A DNA stretch of 64,000 nt from Chelativorans salis (lineage in GTDB: Bacteria; Pseudomonadota; Alphaproteobacteria; Rhizobiales; Rhizobiaceae), in assembly GCF_025336525.1 (NCBI RefSeq), contig NZ_JAOCZP010000002.1:744001-808000 (forward strand), written 5' to 3'. Every line of letters starts with the position of its first letter. Position 1 is the stretch's first letter. Under the pieces are notes generated by a model. That model was not told the origin of the DNA and made no database searches. It was given only the letters and a program-made list of their open reading frames with translations. This document shows positions 27,180-59,927 of the stretch, one piece after another. Both the position numbers and the translations under genes were made by a program.

Positions 27180-29156
27180 ATGTCCGCAAAGTTTCATCAA
27201 ATTTCCCGCCGTTCCTTCCTTGCGGGAGCCGGCGCGGCCGGCGCGTTGGTCGCTCTCCACCCCTTCTCGGCGCGCGCGGCGGCGAATCAGGCCCATCTGC
27301 GCATCATGGAGACGACGGACCTGCACGTGCACGTCTTCCCTTACGACTACTATGCCGACAAGCCGAATGACACGATGGGGCTGGCCCGCACCGCGACGAT
27401 TATGGACCAGATCCGCGCCGAGGCGACCAACGCGATGCTGATCGACAACGGTGATTTTCTTCAGGGCAACCCAATGGGCGACTACATTGCCTATGAGCGC
27501 GGCATGAAGGAGGGCGACGTCCACCCGATCATCAAGGCCATGAATACGCTGGGCTACGACTGCTCCACCCTCGGCAACCACGAGTTCAATTACGGGCTCG
27601 ATTTCATGTTCAAGGTGCTGGCCGGCGCCAATTTCCCCTTCGTCTGCGCCAACCTGACCAAGGGCGGGCTTGCCGCCAACGCGCGCGACGACGAGCTTTT
27701 CCTGAAACCCTATATCATCCTCGACAAGGTGCTGAAGGATGGGGCGGGGGAAGAGCATTCCATCCGCGTCGGCCTCATCGGCTTCGTGCCGCCACAGATC
27801 ATGACCTGGGATTCCCGGCACCTGACGGGCAAGGCGATGACGCGTGACATCGTCAAGGCCGCGGAAGCATGGGTGCCGCAAATGAAGGAGGAGGGGGCGG
27901 ACGTCATCATCGCCCTTTCGCACTCCGGCGTCGGACCGGCGCAGTATGAGGAGAACCTGGAGAACGCTTCACTGCTGGTGGCCGGCGTCGATGGCATCGA
28001 CGCGGTAGTGACCGGTCACAGCCATCTCGATTTTCCTGGGCCGAAGTTCGACGGCGTGGAGGGGGTGGACAATGCCAGTGGCCTGATCGGCGGCAAGCCT
28101 GCCGTAATGGGCGGCTTCTGGGGCTCACATCTCGGGCTTATCGACCTGATGCTCGAACGCGACGGCAGGGCTTGGCGGGTGATCGGCTCCACCAGCGAGG
28201 CGCGCCCCATTTTCGAGCGCGTCGAGCGGGCGGTCGAGCCGACCGTGGAGAGCACGGCGGACGTGGAGGAGGTGGTGCGCGAAGACCACGAGGCCACACT
28301 CGCATATGTGCGCACGCCCGTCGGCAAGACTTCGGCGCCGCTACATTCCTATTTCGCGCTCGTTGCCGACGACCCGTCGGTGCAGATCGTATCGCAGGCG
28401 CAGATCTGGTACATCAAGGACATGCTGAAGGACACGGACTACAAGGACATCCCCGTGCTTTCGGCGGCTGCTCCCTTCAAGGCGGGCGGGCGCGGCGGCC
28501 CGGACTACTATACCGACGTGCCGGCGGGCGACGTCGCCATCAAGCACGTGGCCGACCTCTATCTCTATCCGAACACCGTTCAGGCGGTGCTCGTCACCGG
28601 GGCGGATGTGAGGGAGTGGCTGGAGCGGTCGGCCGGCATCTTCAATCAGGTCGAGCCGGGCAAGGCGGATCAGCCGCTGTTGAACACGGACTTTCCGTCC
28701 TACAATTTCGATGTGATCGACGGTGTGACCTATGCGATCGATCTCAGCCAGCCATCGCGCTATTCGTCGGACGGGGAGCTGATCAATCCCGACGCTCACC
28801 GTATAACGGACTTGATGTTTGGCGGTGAACCCATTGACTCGGAAAAGAAATTTGTCGTTGCCTCCAATAACTATCGCGCCGGCGGCGGCGGCAATTTCCC
28901 AGGCATCGGGCCGGACAAGCTGATTTTCGAGGCGCCCGACACCAACCGCGACGTGATCGTGCGCTACATCATCGAAGAAGGCACCATCAACCCATCGGCC
29001 GACGCCAACTGGCGCTTTGCGCCGCTGGAGAACACGTCGGTTCTGTTCGAGACCGGTCCGAAGGGTGCTCAATTTGCGGCTGACGTGGAAGGGGTATCGA
29101 TCGAGCCGGCGGGTGAGGGACAGGAGGGCTTTGCGCTCTACCGCATCGCCTTGTAA
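27180..29156 (+). CDS. cpdB: 2',3'-cyclic-nucleotide 2'-phosphodiesterase / 3'-nucleotidase, periplasmic
   Basis: Hydrolyses 2',3'-cyclic nucleotides and 3'-nucleotides in the periplasm to scavenge nucleosides and phosphate. The 658-residue protein starts with a Tat signal ([13 protein letters not shown]). The metallophosphatase domain (about 38-290) has [28 protein letters not shown] and [10 protein letters not shown]. The 5'-nucleotidase C-terminal domain (about 380-610) has [17 protein letters not shown] and [19 protein letters not shown] precedes the ATG. It appears monocistronic. Confidence 0.94.
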
Positions 29157-29266
29157 GTGGCGGGCGGAAGCTGTGGACCTGAACGCCAGGGCGCGGCAGC
29201 GCGGGACATTGACAATCTCCCCTCCGGCGCCCGATTTCTGCGGGTGACAAAGCCGGAGGCCGCCCC

Positions 29267-29590
29267 GTGATTCGCCACATCGTTTTTTTCAGTGCCCGAA
29301 AGCGCGAGGACGTCGAGCGCATCGCCGAGGAACTGAGCATGCTGGGGCGGATCCCGCATTCGGATTTCTTCGAGATAGGCATCAACCGCAAGGTTGATCA
29401 GCTTGGCGGGGAGGTCGACGTGGTGGTCTATGGCGAGTTCCGCGACGAAGCGGCGCTCGCCGCCTACAAGGCGCACCCCGTCTATGCCGAGTGCATCACC
29501 AAGGTGCGCCCGCTGAGGGAGATGCGACTGGCCGCGGACTTCGTTTCTGAGGCCGGTGCCACCAGTTCGGGTGGCCGGAAAGGGCGTTGA
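29267..29590 (+). CDS. Dabb (stress-responsive alpha/beta barrel) family protein
   Basis: A 107-residue single-domain protein resembling the Dabb/ABM dimeric barrels: IRHIVFFSARKREDVERI at the start, then DVVVYGEFRDEAALAAYKAHPVYAEC and a short tail. The start is a GTG with GGAGG seven bases before. Function is not known; relatives are stress-induced or are small enzymes. It precedes the partial tRNA-Asn-like repeat. Confidence 0.8.
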   Translation: MIRHIVFFSARKREDVERIAEELSMLGRIPHSDFFEIGINRKVDQLGGEVDVVVYGEFRDEAALAAYKAHPVYAECITKVRPLREMRLAADFVSEAGATSSGGRKGR

Positions 29591-29652
29591 AACGTCCGAG
29601 ACGGCATAACAAACCGCAATTTCGAGATTTCAACTGTCGGTAAAAGAAAGAG

Positions 29653-48889: not shown

Positions 48890-48988
48890 TTGCGGACAGA
48901 AGCTGTCACCATTTGCCCACAATGCGCTGGTAGGGCCAACCAAGTATAGTGCGACGTTGCCCGCGTCCGACCGAGTGTGGGAAAAGGC

Positions 48989-51406
48989 ATGGCTGACAGT
49001 AATTATTCAAATGCCGCGGAGCCGAAAGATCTGGCGCAAGACGATCCGTTTGCCGAACTGACGCGGATCATGGGCCACGACACGCGTCCCATTCCGAAAT
49101 CGGAGTCGGCGCAAGAAGAACCGACGGACAACCTTAGCCTCGAACTAGAGAACGAGTTGTTGGGGGATCTGGCCGACGAGGCTGATCAGCCCGACGTCGC
49201 TGATGCAGCGCTCGACGAGGAGGAGGTCAGCTTCCGGCAGTATGCTCAGGCACCTGAGCCGGATCTCTCCGCCGAGGAGGTTGCAGAACCCGAATCGACG
49301 CTCGACGACACGTTCGAGAGTGCATTCGACGACGTGTTCGCTGCTGAGGAGCCGGCCGCAGCCGAGGATAGTGAAGCAGCCGACGACACCCATGCCGAGC
49401 CTTCCGCGTTTGCGGAGGAGGGGGGCGCGGAGGAAAGCGCCGGAGACGATCCGTTCATGATCCGCGAGGAGGATCTGGCGGCGCTTGATCCCGACTTTGC
49501 CATGTACGATCAGGAAGCTGATGCCGCAGCAGCCACTGGAGAAGAGCCGCAGGCTCCTGCCCAGGCCGAGCACGATGCATCCTTCGGCGAGGACGAGCCT
49601 GTCTCCGAGCAGCCGGAGTACTTCTCTGCCGCCGACGCGGCCGGAGCAACGTATAGCCAGGTTCCGGAAGACGGGTGGATACCCGCTTCCACGCCGGCTG
49701 GAGACGACGCGGAGATGCCAGCGGATGAACCGCAGGCGATTACGGGAGGCGACGCTCTGGGCGAGTGGTCGCCAGAAGCCCTTTTTGCCGGCCTCGATGG
49801 TCAGGATTGGCATCAGGGCGGTGAGCACGATGCGGAGCCGGAAGCTCCTGCAGCCGATCCTATGCCGCCGGAAGTCGACACTGTCGAGGTGCCCGAAGGC
49901 GCCGTCGCCCTGGCCGACAATCTCGATGTGCCCGAGGTCCCCTATCAGAAGGAAGAGGTGAAGGCGGAGTTCGACGAGATCGAGGAGATGTTGGCCGGCG
50001 CTTTCGGCGAGGGGAACGACGCGGCTGACGGGCCGGACGACGCGTGGATGGAAACCGCCCCGCGCCGGACCGAGGCGCCACAGGAGCAGGATGACGAGGA
50101 GATCGACGACTATCTCACCGCCGGCATTGGTGCAGGCGTGGGAGCCGGGATCGCCGCTTACGCGGCGCAGAACTCCGGCGGAAACGCTTACAGCGATCCT
50201 GCCGCCAGCTATCATGACCGGGACATCCGTGAGTGGAGCGCGACCTCCGACGAATTGAAACCAGCGCCCGGCGCCGAGCCGCCCGCGGCCGAGAGCGGAC
50301 GCCGCTTCGGTTCTCGTACGATGATGGCAGCGGCAGTGATCGGCGGCGTGGTCATTTTGGGCGGCGTGACGGTGTTCGCGCTCAGCTTCGGCGGCGGTGA
50401 CGCTGAGGAGCCGGCCCTGGTGAAGGCGGACGACACGCCGGTGAAGGTGAAGCCGGAAAACCCCGGCGGCACCACCATTCCCAATCAGGACAACCAGGTC
50501 TACAGGCGCGTATCCGGCGAAACCGAGGTGGCCGAGCCAGGACAGACTCGGCTCGTATCCAATACCGAGGAGCCGGTCGACCTGCCTGCTCTGGAGACAC
50601 CGACGAGTGACCCCGCTGTGGAGACGCCGGCGAGTGACATTGCGGCGGCCAAGGTGGAGGATCGGCTGGAGAATCCCATCGAGGAAGCGAGCAGCGGCAA
50701 CGAGACTGCGACGCTCGCTCCGCGCCGGGTCCGCTCATTCGTCGTGCAGCCGGACGGTACGATGGTGCCGAACGACGTGCCGGAGCCTGTCGAGACGGCG
50801 GGCAACAACGCCGACGAGGTGGCGAATGCCGTTGCAGCGGACTCCGAGACGGTGGCAGCCACACAGGCCCAAGCAACGGACGAGCCGTCCGCTGCAATGG
50901 AAAACGCACAAGCAGCCGCCACAACGGGGAATACCCAGACCGACGCTGACGGCAATATCGCCGAGGCGGCCGCCGCGAACGCGGTGTCGGTGCCATCTTC
51001 CGGGCCGATTCCGCCTTCTCGGCCGAGCAATATCGCTACTGCACAACAGCAGCAGGCCGACAGCTCTGCCAATGCCAATTCCCAAGCACCGCAAGCGCAG
51101 CAGCAGGGCACGCCCACACAGGTGGCCGCTGCCGAACCGCCGCCTGCGCAGGCAGCCGCCGGTTCCGATTGGTCCGTGCAGATTTCCTCGCAGGCCAGCG
51201 TCGAAGGCGCGCAGCAATCATACCAGGAACTGGCGCAGCGCTACGGCAACCTGCTGCAAGGCAAGGGCGTCAACATCGTCAAGGCCGACATCGCCGGCAA
51301 GGGCACCTACTACCGCGTGCGCATTCCCTCCTCCTCCAAGGACGAGGCGATCCGGTTGTGCGAACAACTTAAGGCGGCCGGCGGGAGCTGCTTCGTTTCG
51401 AAGTAG
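48989..51406 (+). CDS. Large SPOR-domain membrane protein
   Basis: An 805-residue protein with three parts. The first is a very acidic, low-complexity cytoplasmic region (about 1-440, rich in E, D, A and P). A single transmembrane helix follows (about 444-468, AVIGGVVILGGVTVFALS). The periplasmic part has an Ala/Gln/Glu/Pro-rich linker and a C-terminal SPOR domain (about 725-805, SDWSVQISSQASVEGAQQSYQEL to SCFVSK). SPOR domains bind glycan strands lacking stem peptides at the septum, so a role in division or polar growth is likely. GGGAAAAGG precedes the ATG at 48989. Two cysteines near the C-terminus (LCEQLKAAGGSC) could form the SPOR disulphide. A terminator follows. Confidence 0.9.
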   Translation: MADSNYSNAAEPKDLAQDDPFAELTRIMGHDTRPIPKSESAQEEPTDNLSLELENELLGDLADEADQPDVADAALDEEEVSFRQYAQAPEPDLSAEEVAEPESTLDDTFESAFDDVFAAEEPAAAEDSEAADDTHAEPSAFAEEGGAEESAGDDPFMIREEDLAALDPDFAMYDQEADAAAATGEEPQAPAQAEHDASFGEDEPVSEQPEYFSAADAAGATYSQVPEDGWIPASTPAGDDAEMPADEPQAITGGDALGEWSPEALFAGLDGQDWHQGGEHDAEPEAPAADPMPPEVDTVEVPEGAVALADNLDVPEVPYQKEEVKAEFDEIEEMLAGAFGEGNDAADGPDDAWMETAPRRTEAPQEQDDEEIDDYLTAGIGAGVGAGIAAYAAQNSGGNAYSDPAASYHDRDIREWSATSDELKPAPGAEPPAAESGRRFGSRTMMAAAVIGGVVILGGVTVFALSFGGGDAEEPALVKADDTPVKVKPENPGGTTIPNQDNQVYRRVSGETEVAEPGQTRLVSNTEEPVDLPALETPTSDPAVETPASDIAAAKVEDRLENPIEEASSGNETATLAPRRVRSFVVQPDGTMVPNDVPEPVETAGNNADEVANAVAADSETVAATQAQATDEPSAAMENAQAAATTGNTQTDADGNIAEAAAANAVSVPSSGPIPPSRPSNIATAQQQQADSSANANSQAPQAQQQGTPTQVAAAEPPPAQAAAGSDWSVQISSQASVEGAQQSYQELAQRYGNLLQGKGVNIVKADIAGKGTYYRVRIPSSSKDEAIRLCEQLKAAGGSCFVSK

Positions 51407-56198: not shown

Positions 56199-56753
56199 AT
56201 GTTTGACTTGGGATGGCCTGAACTTCTTGTCATCGCGATCGTGCTGATCGTCGTCGTCGGGCCGAAGGACTTGCCCGGCGTCCTGCGCGGCTTCGGCCGC
56301 ACGACGACCAAGCTGCGATCGATGGCCGGCGACTTCCGCAAGCAGTTCGACGAAGCGCTGCGGGAGGCTGAGCTCGATGACGTGAAGCGCTTAGCCGACG
56401 ACGCACGAAAGCTCGACCCGCGCGGTGAGATCAAGAAGCATCTCAGTCCGCTGGAAAAGGCCGGGCGTGACGTCCGCAGCGGGCTCGACGAGACAATGAA
56501 ACCGAAGGCGGCCTCCGAGGCTCCGGCGGTCGCCGAGGCGAAGCCTGACGCGCCGCCCAGCGAGAAGCCTGCGCCCGCCAAATCCACGGCGGCCAAGCCC
56601 ACTGCAGCCAAGAAAACGGCGACCAGGCGTGCCACCAAGCCGGCGGCGAAAACAGCTGTACCTAAGAACGCGCCTGGCGCCAAATCCACCGCCAAACAGG
56701 CGCAGGCCAAGCCCGCAGCGCGCGGGAAAAAGACAACGGGAACCGCGCCGTGA
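56199..56753 (+). CDS. tatB: Sec-independent protein translocase subunit TatB
   Basis: A 184-residue receptor-complex subunit. The N-terminus MFDLGWPELLVIAIVLIVVVGPKDLP is the TatB form (with the helix glutamate), followed by an amphipathic helix (GFGRTTTKLRSMAGDFRKQF) and a long Lys/Ala/Pro-rich tail (about 100-184), which is common in rhizobia. Its TGA overlaps the GTG start of tatC by four bases. Confidence 0.94.
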   Translation: MFDLGWPELLVIAIVLIVVVGPKDLPGVLRGFGRTTTKLRSMAGDFRKQFDEALREAELDDVKRLADDARKLDPRGEIKKHLSPLEKAGRDVRSGLDETMKPKAASEAPAVAEAKPDAPPSEKPAPAKSTAAKPTAAKKTATRRATKPAAKTAVPKNAPGAKSTAKQAQAKPAARGKKTTGTAP

Positions 56754-57610
56754 GCGCCAAGAACGAAGACAACGATATCGACAAGTCATCAGCGCCGCTG
56801 ATGGAGCACCTGATCGAGCTGCGCTCTCGTCTCATGTGGGCGATCGCCGCCTTTTTCGTCGCGTTTCTGGTCTGTTTCTTCTTCGCCAAGGGCATCTTCA
56901 ACCTGCTGGTCGTTCCCTTCCAGTGGGCGAGCGACTGGGCGGGTCTCGATTCGGAGAAGGTCGACCTCATCTACACCGCGCCGCAGGAGTTCTTCTTCAC
57001 GCAGATCAAGCTGGCCATGTTCGGCGGGCTGGTGCTGGCCTTTCCGGTGATCGCCATGCAGGTCTACAAGTTCGTGGCGCCGGGCCTCTACCGCAATGAA
57101 AGGCATGCCTTCCTGCCCTTCCTCATTGCTTCGCCCATTCTGTTCCTGATCGGCGGCAGCCTTGTCTATTTCTTCTTCATGCCCATGGTCATGTGGTTCT
57201 TCCTGTCCATGCAGCAGGTGGGGCCGGACAACGAGATTCAGATTTCGCTGCTGCCGCGCGTTTCGGAATATCTCGGTCTCATCATGACGCTGATCCTGTC
57301 CTTCGGCCTGGTCTTCCAGTTGCCGGTGGTCACGACGCTGATGGCGCGGGTGGGGCTCCTGACCTCGCAGGGGCTGGTCGACAAGCGCAAATACGCCATC
57401 GTCGCCGCCTTCGTGGTTGCCGCGGTGCTGACGCCACCAGACCCGGTGAGCCAGATCGGTCTTGCGCTTCCCACCATCCTTCTCTACGAGATTGCCATTT
57501 GGAGCGCCCGGATGGTGGAGCGCAGACGCGCGAGGGACGAGGCGGAAAAGGAAAGCGCTGATACGGCGGCAGACACGGAAACCGCTGCCAGAACCGAATC
57601 AGCTTCCTAA
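56750..57610 (+). CDS. tatC: Sec-independent protein translocase subunit TatC
   Basis: A 286-residue polytopic protein with six membrane helices that binds twin-arginine signals. Family signatures: [19 protein letters not shown] at the N-terminus, [18 protein letters not shown] and [18 protein letters not shown]. The acidic/alanine tail ([19 protein letters not shown]) is unusual but not conserved. It starts at a GTG overlapping tatB. Confidence 0.96.
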
Positions 57611-57672: not shown

Positions 57673-59163
57673 ATGCTTGACATAAAATGGATTCGCGAGA
57701 ACCCCGAAGACCTCGTGCTCGCGCTGAAGAAGCGCGGGCAGGCGGAGGCCGAGGCGCGGTCCACGGTCGAATCCGTGATCGCCGCCGACGAGGCCCGGCG
57801 CACGCATCTGACGAAGCTGCAGGAAGCCCAGGAGCGCCGCAACGCCGCCTCCAAGGAGATCGGCAAGGCGATGGGCGCGGGCGACCAGGCGCTGGCCGAG
57901 AAGCTCAAGGCCGAGGTGGCGGAGCTGAAAGGCTTCGTGCAGAGCGGCGAGGCGAAGGAGCGCGAGCTTGACGCGGACCTGCGCGACCAGCTTGCCCGCA
58001 TCCCCAATGTGCCGCTCGACGACGTGCCGGAGGGCGCGGACGAGAAGGACAATGTCGAAGTGCGGCGAGCCGGGGAGCCGAAGCGCGCCAATTCATGGAA
58101 GGAACATTTCGAGCTCGGCGAAGCGCTGGGAATGATGGACTTCGAGCGTGCGGCGAAGCTGTCGGGAAGCCGCTTCACCGTGGTTTCGGGGCAACTCGCA
58201 AGGCTCGAACGCGCGCTCGGCCAGTTCATGCTCGACCTGCACACGACCGAGCACGGCTACACGGAGGTGCAGCCGCCGCTGCTGGTGCGGGATGATGCGC
58301 TGTTCGGGACGGGACAGTTGCCGAAGTTTGAGGAGGATCTTTTTTTCACCGATCCGCGAACGCCCGAGTGGAGCGAGCGCCTGCGCAGGACGTTGCTGTC
58401 TACGGGGCAAGTAACTATTGGCAAAATTAATGATGCAGTTTCACCTCAGCGGATGCGAGAGATAGCTGACGTCGTAGCGCGCAACGCGGCCGACATGTTC
58501 TTAATTGACGACTACTTTGCAACCATTGATCCCGCTCTAAGACTCTCGAAAAGACTAGGCCTCATCCCCACCGCCGAAGTCCCGCTCACCAATCTCGTCC
58601 GCGAAGAAATCCTCGACGCCAACACGCTCCCTCTGCGCTACACTGCGCTCACCCCATGCTTCCGCTCGGAAGCCGGCTCGGCGGGCAAGGACACGCGCGG
58701 CATGCTGCGCCAGCACCAGTTTTACAAAGTCGAGATGGTGTCGATTACCGATGCCGAATCATCGCTTCAAGAGCACGAGCGCATGACCGAATGCGCCGAG
58801 ACGGTGCTGAAGAAACTCGGCCTTCCCTTCCGCACCGTTGTCCTGTGCACCGGCGACATGGGCTTCGGCGCGCGGAAGACTTACGACATCGAAGTCTGGC
58901 TCCCCGGCCAGAACGCCTACCGCGAAATCTCTTCCTGCTCGGTCTGCGGCGATTTCCAGGCGCGGCGCATGAACACGCGCTACCGTTCCGGCGAAAAGCA
59001 GACGCGCTTCGTGCACACGCTCAACGGCTCGGGCGTCGCGACGGGCCGCGCGCTGATCGCCGTCATGGAAAATTACCAGAACGAAGACGGCAGCATTAGC
59101 ATTCCGGAAATCCTGCAGCCCTATATGGGTGGAACAACGAGGATCGAAGCGGCAAAAGGGTAG
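57673..59163 (+). CDS. serS: Seryl-tRNA synthetase with an internal insertion of about 65 residues
   Basis: Class II synthetase for tRNA-Ser, 496 residues (bacterial enzymes are usually 420-435). The N-terminal coiled-coil arm covers about 28-110. Motif 1 is near 195-205 ([12 protein letters not shown]), motif 2 is [21 protein letters not shown] and motif 3 is [17 protein letters not shown]. Between EEDLF (220-224) and the serine-binding LIPTAE (297-302) typical enzymes have about seven residues; here there are 72. Bases 58401-58560 inside this block are 49% G+C (78 of 160), with codons such as ATT, TTA, CTA and AGA that are rare around it. All catalytic motifs remain, so the enzyme is probably active. 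Confidence 0.95.
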
Positions 59164-59168
59164 GGGCC

Positions 59169-59927
59169 TTGCGCATTCTTCTGACCAATGACGACGGCAT
59201 CCACGCCGAGGGACTGCAGGTCTTGGAGCGCATCGCCCGTACGCTTTCGGACGATGTGTGGGTGGTGGCGCCGGAGACGGACCAGTCGGGCTTCGCGCAC
59301 TCGCTGTCGCTGTCCGAGCCGCTCAGGATGCGCAAGATCGACGACCGGCACTATGCACTGCGCGGCACGCCGACCGATTGCGTCATCATGGGCGTGCGCA
59401 AGGTGATGGATGCGCCGCCGGACTTGATCCTGTCCGGCGTCAACAACGGCACCAACATCGCCGACGACGTCACCTATTCCGGCACCGTGGCGGGCGCCAT
59501 GGAAGGCACGCTGCTCGGCATCCGCGCGATCGCGCTCAGCCAGGCCTACGATTTCGCCGAGGATATCCGCTATATCCCGTGGGACACGACGGAGGCGGTG
59601 GCGCCACCGCTCCTCAAGAAGCTGGTTGCCACCGACCTGCCCACGGGTGTGTTCCTCAACGTCAATTTCCCCAACTGTCCGCCCGAGGAGGTGAAGGGCG
59701 CCATCGTCACCTCCCAGGGCAAGCTCGTGCACGGGCTGTGGATCGACGAGCGCCGGGACGGCAGGGGCTTTCCCTATTACTGGTTGCGTTTCGGCCGCAA
59801 GGAGGAGGAAGTGCGCAAGGGGAGCGACCAGGCCGCCGTGCGCGACGGCTATATCTCCGTCACGCCGCTGCATCTCGATCTCACGGCGCACGAGGTGCGC
59901 GAACGGCTTTCGAAGGCGCTTTCGTGA
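59169..59927 (+). CDS. surE: 5'/3'-nucleotidase SurE
   Basis: Survival protein SurE, a metal-dependent nucleotidase of 252 residues. Signatures: [16 protein letters not shown] at the start, [39 protein letters not shown] (as [18 protein letters not shown]) and NVNFP. It begins with TTG, five bases after the serS stop and after AAAAGGGTAGGGG. Its stop overlaps the pcm GTG start. The surE–pcm–nlpD order is the same as in enterobacteria, though rpoS is absent. Confidence 0.95.

Follow-up and report, generated by a model that had tools for sequence, protein, structure and literature searches.

The common view of aminoacyl-tRNA synthetases is one of slow, conserved housekeeping enzymes. Here we describe one of them, the seryl-tRNA synthetase (SerRS) of Chelativorans salis, which carries an insert of 72 residues next to its serine-binding loop. 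Its gene, serS, lies in a window of 64,000 nucleotides (contig NZ_JAOCZP010000002.1, positions 744,001 to 808,000). By the window, we mean this whole stretch. Segments added to SerRS are known from eukaryotes, where they serve contacts with partners and with DNA (PMC10817482). Insertion II of the cytosolic enzyme of higher eukaryotes (G254-N261 in human SerRS) resembles the insert studied here. It is an in-frame segment of the catalytic domain near the active site, and its role in aminoacylation is negligible (PMC10817482). However, insertion II is short and lineage-fixed, whereas the bacterial inserts reach up to 95 residues, are unrelated between sister species and mostly have a foreign composition.

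Systems that swap domains are also similar. The C-termini of polymorphic toxins and the specificity domains of restriction enzymes combine a conserved frame with unrelated alternative cassettes. Nevertheless, those are accessory proteins of conflict, whereas SerRS is an essential enzyme of translation, here encoded by a single copy, and the searches we made found no stand-alone cassette for it. The cassettes of such systems are low in G+C, like most of those of SerRS. The palindromic elements of Rickettsia share with serS the in-frame sequence within an alphaproteobacterial housekeeping gene. They differ in that one palindromic sequence occupies many sites there, whereas SerRS has one site, many sequences and no palindrome. 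Our full-text searches of open-licence papers turned up no description of an exchange site in SerRS.

A pattern of exchange at one loop of SerRS is well supported by the comparisons of sequences that follow. The loop is a recurrent exchange hotspot in Alphaproteobacteria, and the insert in the window is one of its alleles. The hotspot was absent from the sequence-only reading of the window, because seeing it needs other genomes.

The serS gene occupies 57673..59163 on the forward strand and encodes 496 residues. Judged by its domains, the product is a bacterial seryl-tRNA synthetase with an N-terminal tRNA-binding arm and a class II catalytic core (Pfam Seryl_tRNA_N PF02403, 1.8e-26; tRNA-synt_2b PF00587, 1.2e-42). 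Its matches in the PDB are SerRS, the best at 1.1e-133. The insert covers residues 225-296 (58345..58560, forward strand), exactly where the sequence-only reading had placed an in-frame insertion. On its left are the conserved codons for FEEDLF (residues 219-224; 58327..58344), and on its right those for LIPTAE (residues 297-302; 58561..58578), both on the same strand. We take LIPTAE to be the start of the serine-binding TAE loop. Judging by SerRS structures, the site is presumably the hairpin that joins the strand following motif 1 to that of TAE, and insertion II probably sits in the same hairpin. The two solved SerRS with printed alignments match both flanks and skip the 72 residues. The insert alone has no Pfam match and no significant PDB match. 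It replaces a hairpin tip of 7 or 10 residues. The net gain is 65 residues against the 7-residue loop of its own genus, and 62 against the 10-residue loop of most Mesorhizobium read. An assembly join at the insert is very unlikely, since our search of the 5.66-Mb genome yielded no other serS and inserts occupy this position in further genomes too.

Most SerRS of the 101 relatives searched align to that of the window in two pieces around the insert. We read the loop at 142 loci, some species being included twice, by means of a regular expression. The loop had 7 residues at 44 loci, 10 at 43 and 15-95 at 55. Two loci (L121 of G463, and L149) escaped capture. We excluded L001, L002, L113, L115, L146 and L150, which are duplicates, not SerRS, or a piece at a contig end whose loop has 7 residues. 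Genomes with long loops make up most of what we fetched from the order and class surveys, so the 142 loops and the tree are enriched for these and give no frequencies. The frequencies come from surveys with a catalytic query of 143 residues, counting genomes in which the loop breaks the match in two. Such loops (22-93 residues in those read) occur in 20/127 genomes of the order that gave a match and 11/134 of the family, C. salis included in both. Likewise, they occur in 6/118 genomes of the class outside the order, and in 0/93 of the phylum outside the class. The family survey counted 134 of 135 genomes (G016 gave a contig-end or partial piece), G463 entered the order survey by coordinates only, and such pieces were all that 4/118 genomes of the class and 1/93 of the phylum gave. 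These surveys overlook loops of up to about 22 residues that align in a single piece (e.g. G094, G505, G064). Outside the class, single-piece spans exceed the query by up to 36 bases, so loops of 15-19 residues are no peculiarity of the class. We infer that the short loop is ancestral, because it prevails outside the class.

Closer to C. salis, ten of the 80 nearest named loci have loops of 29-95 residues. The genus itself shows six different long inserts among 14 listed loci, and the other eight are short. A FastTree phylogeny of SerRS without the loop (128 rows) requires 17 changes between long and short, 8 of them forced by starred branches. On this tree, neighbouring tips hold unrelated inserts.

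The clearest view of replacement comes from sister species, where unrelated alternatives occupy a fixed site between conserved flanks. The flanks of the C. salis and Chelativorans alearense enzymes are 93% identical, and their inserts score 23, where shuffles average 22.1 (199/500 shuffles as good). In L009 and L116 the flanks reach 97% identity with a synonymous difference of 0.19. The inserts of this pair score 21 against 21.1 for shuffles, and 257/500 are as good. Likewise, L006 and L136 have flanks 95% identical and inserts scoring 17 against 20.8 (459/500 as good). The relative of the L136 insert is instead found in L005, from another genus (score 144, z 30, 0/500 shuffles), and not in its sister L006. 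Synonymous differences in the pairs with 95-97% flank identity are 0.19-0.35. The least clear pair is L011 and L124, with an insert score of 26 and 51/500 shuffles as good. Identity remains high up to the junctions in several pairs. The nearest 30-base bins before and after the insert are 97% and 87% identical in L009/L116, 87% and 90% in C. salis/C. alearense, and 83% and 90% in L006/L136. A general divergence of the region was rejected as the cause: among 52 mechanically paired open reading frames (ORFs) of the window and a congener contig, serS has the lowest 40-column identity (0.25).

We compared 53 distinct long inserts pairwise, after dropping duplicates (1378 pairs), with shuffled pairs as the reference. 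A score of at least 50 was reached by 22/1378 pairs and by 0 shuffled ones, whose highest score was 46. For 37/53 inserts, no partner exceeded the score reached by shuffles. The others include family A (the window insert, L114 of G214 and L128 of G489), family B with seven members, and families C, E and F with two each. Family A spans C. salis, a second genus of the same taxonomic family (G214, among 394 family genomes; about 35% identity) and a second family of the order (G489, among 397 order genomes; about one third). Its profile gives two strong matches in the order genomes, both SerRS, and two weak ones elsewhere. The edges of its inserts, FFTDPR and R(L/F)G, resemble the type with a 10-residue loop, unlike the 7-residue type of the own genus. 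Therefore, an import of the family A insert into the genus is suggested by its edge motifs. Family B occurs in several families of the order with 48-53 residues, most ending in AP..E.(F/Y)W. All 10 strong matches of its profile in 397 genomes lie within SerRS, and seven weak matches lie outside. No insert runs throughout a lineage in the manner of a lineage-specific synthetase insertion domain. Families A, C and F are scattered, and family B comes nearest to a lineage-wide domain.

Searches of the 48 inserts of at least 25 residues against Pfam, NCBIfam, PHROGs and PADLOC returned weak matches only (best E 3e-4, below its cut-off). The L010 and L088 inserts of family B show a sub-threshold similarity to the antitoxin VbhA over 24-25 residues, and the window insert has no such match. 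We rejected VbhA (PF18495) as an identification, with 21.0 bits over 24 residues for L010 and 18.5 bits for L088 against a cut-off of 25.9. A stretch of the window insert at 58483-58545 (residues 271-291) resembles part of a P-type ATPase (TIGR01522, E 0.0087), and the insert has about 37% identity over 66 residues to plasmid P-type ATPases (E 0.3). An origin from such an ATPase was also rejected. The similarity is weak and the family matched 1/48 inserts, hence neither L114 nor L128. The raw count of cysteines in the long inserts is only 1 in 2855 residues.

The composition of the inserts sets most of them apart from their genes. The sequence-only reading had counted 78 G+C of 160 bases in 58401-58560 against 38 of 60 in the next 60 bases, and we obtained the same counts. 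The codons that it called rare (ATT, TTA, CTA, AGA, GTA) make up 11/72 codons of the insert and 4/424 of the rest of serS. Its view of a segment of foreign composition beside the serine-binding loop thus agrees with the third-position G+C (GC3), which is 0.55 against 0.84 expected after correction for amino acids (z -6.9). Across the inserts, GC3 falls short of that in the rest of the gene by 0.22 on average, and in 33/53 it is below every other stretch of the same length in the own gene. The corrected z is under -3 in 31/48 inserts (at least 25 residues) against 13/332 stretches of the gene body, although the lowest control is -9.0. Family B is host-like (mean z -0.06), whereas the remaining inserts have a mean of -6.7. 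In families A, C and F every member has a low value (z -5.5 to -12.9) in spite of their divergence, as if they had recently passed through a low-GC pool. The same block at matching G+C in most related SerRS, which the sequence-only reading had named as the sign of an old lineage trait, is not what we see. A related block is found in two other genomes, both with low GC3. A capture of coding DNA in another frame was considered and rejected, since the densities of stops give no clear sign of it. Four of the five other frames are near the codon-shuffled expectation (0.037/0.033, 0.066/0.067, 0.023/0.023 and 0.023/0.024), and one antisense frame is lower (0.036/0.049).

The dN/dS values of the family B inserts (0.25-0.66 against 0.07-0.26 in the flanks, ten pairs) show that they are translated and under constraint, though a looser one than that on the SerRS body. 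For families A and F, the ratio was not computable because synonymous sites are saturated. AlphaFold2 predicts three helices in the window insert (231-244, 258-274 and 276-285), with low to moderate confidence. In the L010 insert of family B, it predicts three helices within 230-266, with block confidence up to 90.

The freedom of this loop was not seen in two other class II enzymes. In 22 genomes with long inserts, the match to threonyl-tRNA synthetase (ThrRS) spans 1677-1731 bases in 22/22. For prolyl-tRNA synthetase (ProRS), it spans 1308-1317 in 20/22, and G089 and G472 gave no match at the threshold. A general hotspot of class II enzymes was rejected on these uniform spans, two enzymes being compared. 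Likewise, a link of the insert with tRNA(Sec) was rejected. Matches of at least 65 bits occur in 2/39 long-insert and 3/39 short-loop genomes, and G509, one of the latter three, is a congener of both long-insert ones. Matches of about 50 bits are also present in most control genomes, and we took them as tRNA(Ser).

We propose that the hairpin between EEDLF and LIPTAE of alphaproteobacterial SerRS serves for the exchange of small, probably helical cassettes, which would be swapped by recombination and turned over by diversifying selection. We give this proposal an even chance of being right. Its pattern is the well-supported part, and we infer the route and the cause. Cassettes would move between species via recombination in the flanking codons, and diversifying selection would drive their turnover. 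Protruding helices may change how an agent that acts on SerRS, be it a toxin, a phage protein or a natural inhibitor, reaches the active-site face. In the genomes compared, serS stays intact and usually keeps its neighbours.

Several observations weigh against this proposal. At the lower threshold of 35, 58 pairs of inserts compare with 6 shuffled ones, and some unmatched inserts may be distant relatives. The junctions are not all sharp: the nearest upstream bin falls to 57% identity in L038/L105 and to 67% in L084/L087, perhaps because flank was imported as well, perhaps through ordinary divergence. Next to the rest of serS, the flanks do not stand out by their conservation. So, we rejected them as unusually conserved recombination sites, and the recombination route is only plausible. 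Within families, dN/dS is below 1 where computable. The model of the window insert has low confidence in the insert (blocks 49-72). No donor was found in viral contigs (three inserts searched), plasmids (four) or phages (two), and no gene for a SerRS-acting agent or partner was found. Nor did the searches made find a stand-alone pool of cassettes, most inserts never having been searched individually.

A further and more tentative step, which may well fail, is to regard SerRS of Alphaproteobacteria as a polymorphic, horizontally exchanged lock. Swaps of cassettes between species would allow escape from an undiscovered agent that recognises SerRS, and the cassettes would cycle through a low-GC gene pool. 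Three things make us prefer such an arms race at the active-site face to a neutral sink: ThrRS and ProRS behave differently, family B persists and is constrained, and families recur.

This neutral sink is the main rival. It holds that the solvent-facing tip of the hairpin tolerates and collects in-frame foreign fragments, by illegitimate recombination or break repair, with no selected function. The great diversity of the inserts, their lack of solid homologues and their foreign composition fit it, as does the negligible part of human insertion II in aminoacylation (PMC10817482). However, ThrRS and ProRS of the same genomes, the two enzymes compared, do not show equal freedom, and no alignment-splitting loop occurs in the 93 genomes surveyed in the phylum beyond the class. 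Family B persists across several families at 48-53 residues under purifying selection. Captured pieces of ordinary genes should moreover give clear Pfam matches, yet the best of 48 inserts stayed below its cut-off (E 3e-4). On balance, we consider the sink unlikely, though a serious rival.

A lineage-specific module that binds a partner protein, or else a portion of tRNA(Ser) or tRNA(Sec), and was remodelled in each lineage seems improbable. The inserts are helical in both models and charged, family B is constrained, and the added segments of eukaryotic SerRS do serve partners and DNA (PMC10817482). Nevertheless, one conserved partner would hardly explain why sister species carry unrelated inserts, and the tRNA(Sec) counts show no association (2/39 long against 3/39 short at 65 bits or more).

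Very improbable is the idea that a single ancestral domain diverged past recognition in every lineage and was never replaced. The three-helix form of both modelled inserts and the excess of weakly similar pairs would fit with it. However, sisters with flanks 95-97% identical have inserts at or near chance similarity, and the length of the insert changes along with its sequence. Besides, related inserts depart from the SerRS tree (L136 groups with L005, not with L006).

Known mobile elements are best judged on the window insert. The sequence-only reading had set inteins aside and had likened the insert to the palindromic elements of Rickettsia; the acquired-looking, in-frame, non-intein segment stood and the likeness did not. 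Inteins have splice-junction residues and about 130 or more residues. The insert, with 72, begins with F, ends with G before L, has no junction residues and no Pfam match, so an intein was rejected. For a palindromic element, no inverted repeat was found in the insert, and it has no Rfam match. Its RNA folds more weakly than shuffled sequence (energy z +2.06; 198/200 shuffles fold at least as well). A protein-level search of the C. salis genome for a second copy gave one other match (E 0.42), which we attribute to chance. The reading frame and the foreign composition speak for a known mobile in-frame element, whether intein, palindromic element or intron-like insert. Such an element nevertheless has next to no chance of being the explanation, with an insert too short for an intein, no splice residues, repeat, palindrome or Rfam match, and unrelated sequences at a single site.

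The surroundings of serS are the usual ones. A gene that we take to be tatC lies upstream (56750..57610), and one that we take to be surE lies downstream (59169..59927), both on the forward strand. Among named loci, with up to 3 kb read per side and less in some, surE is beside serS in 10/10 long-loop and 65/70 short-loop loci, and tatC in 7/10 and 65/70. Elsewhere in the window, the ORF 29141-29626 falls to a 40-column identity of 0.28 against the congener, and an acidic, low-complexity ORF (48956-51403) shows gaps of 100 and 66 residues. Two genomes have a second SerRS-like match besides the normal SerRS (G519 C16, 44% identity; G596 C185, 42%), possibly an amino acid:carrier protein ligase or a second SerRS.

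The inserts amount to about 50 natural tests of rewiring an essential catalytic domain beside its active site. A swappable site in SerRS, together with uniform ThrRS and ProRS, would point to a conflict aimed at the charging of serine, and it would offer a handle on the agent.
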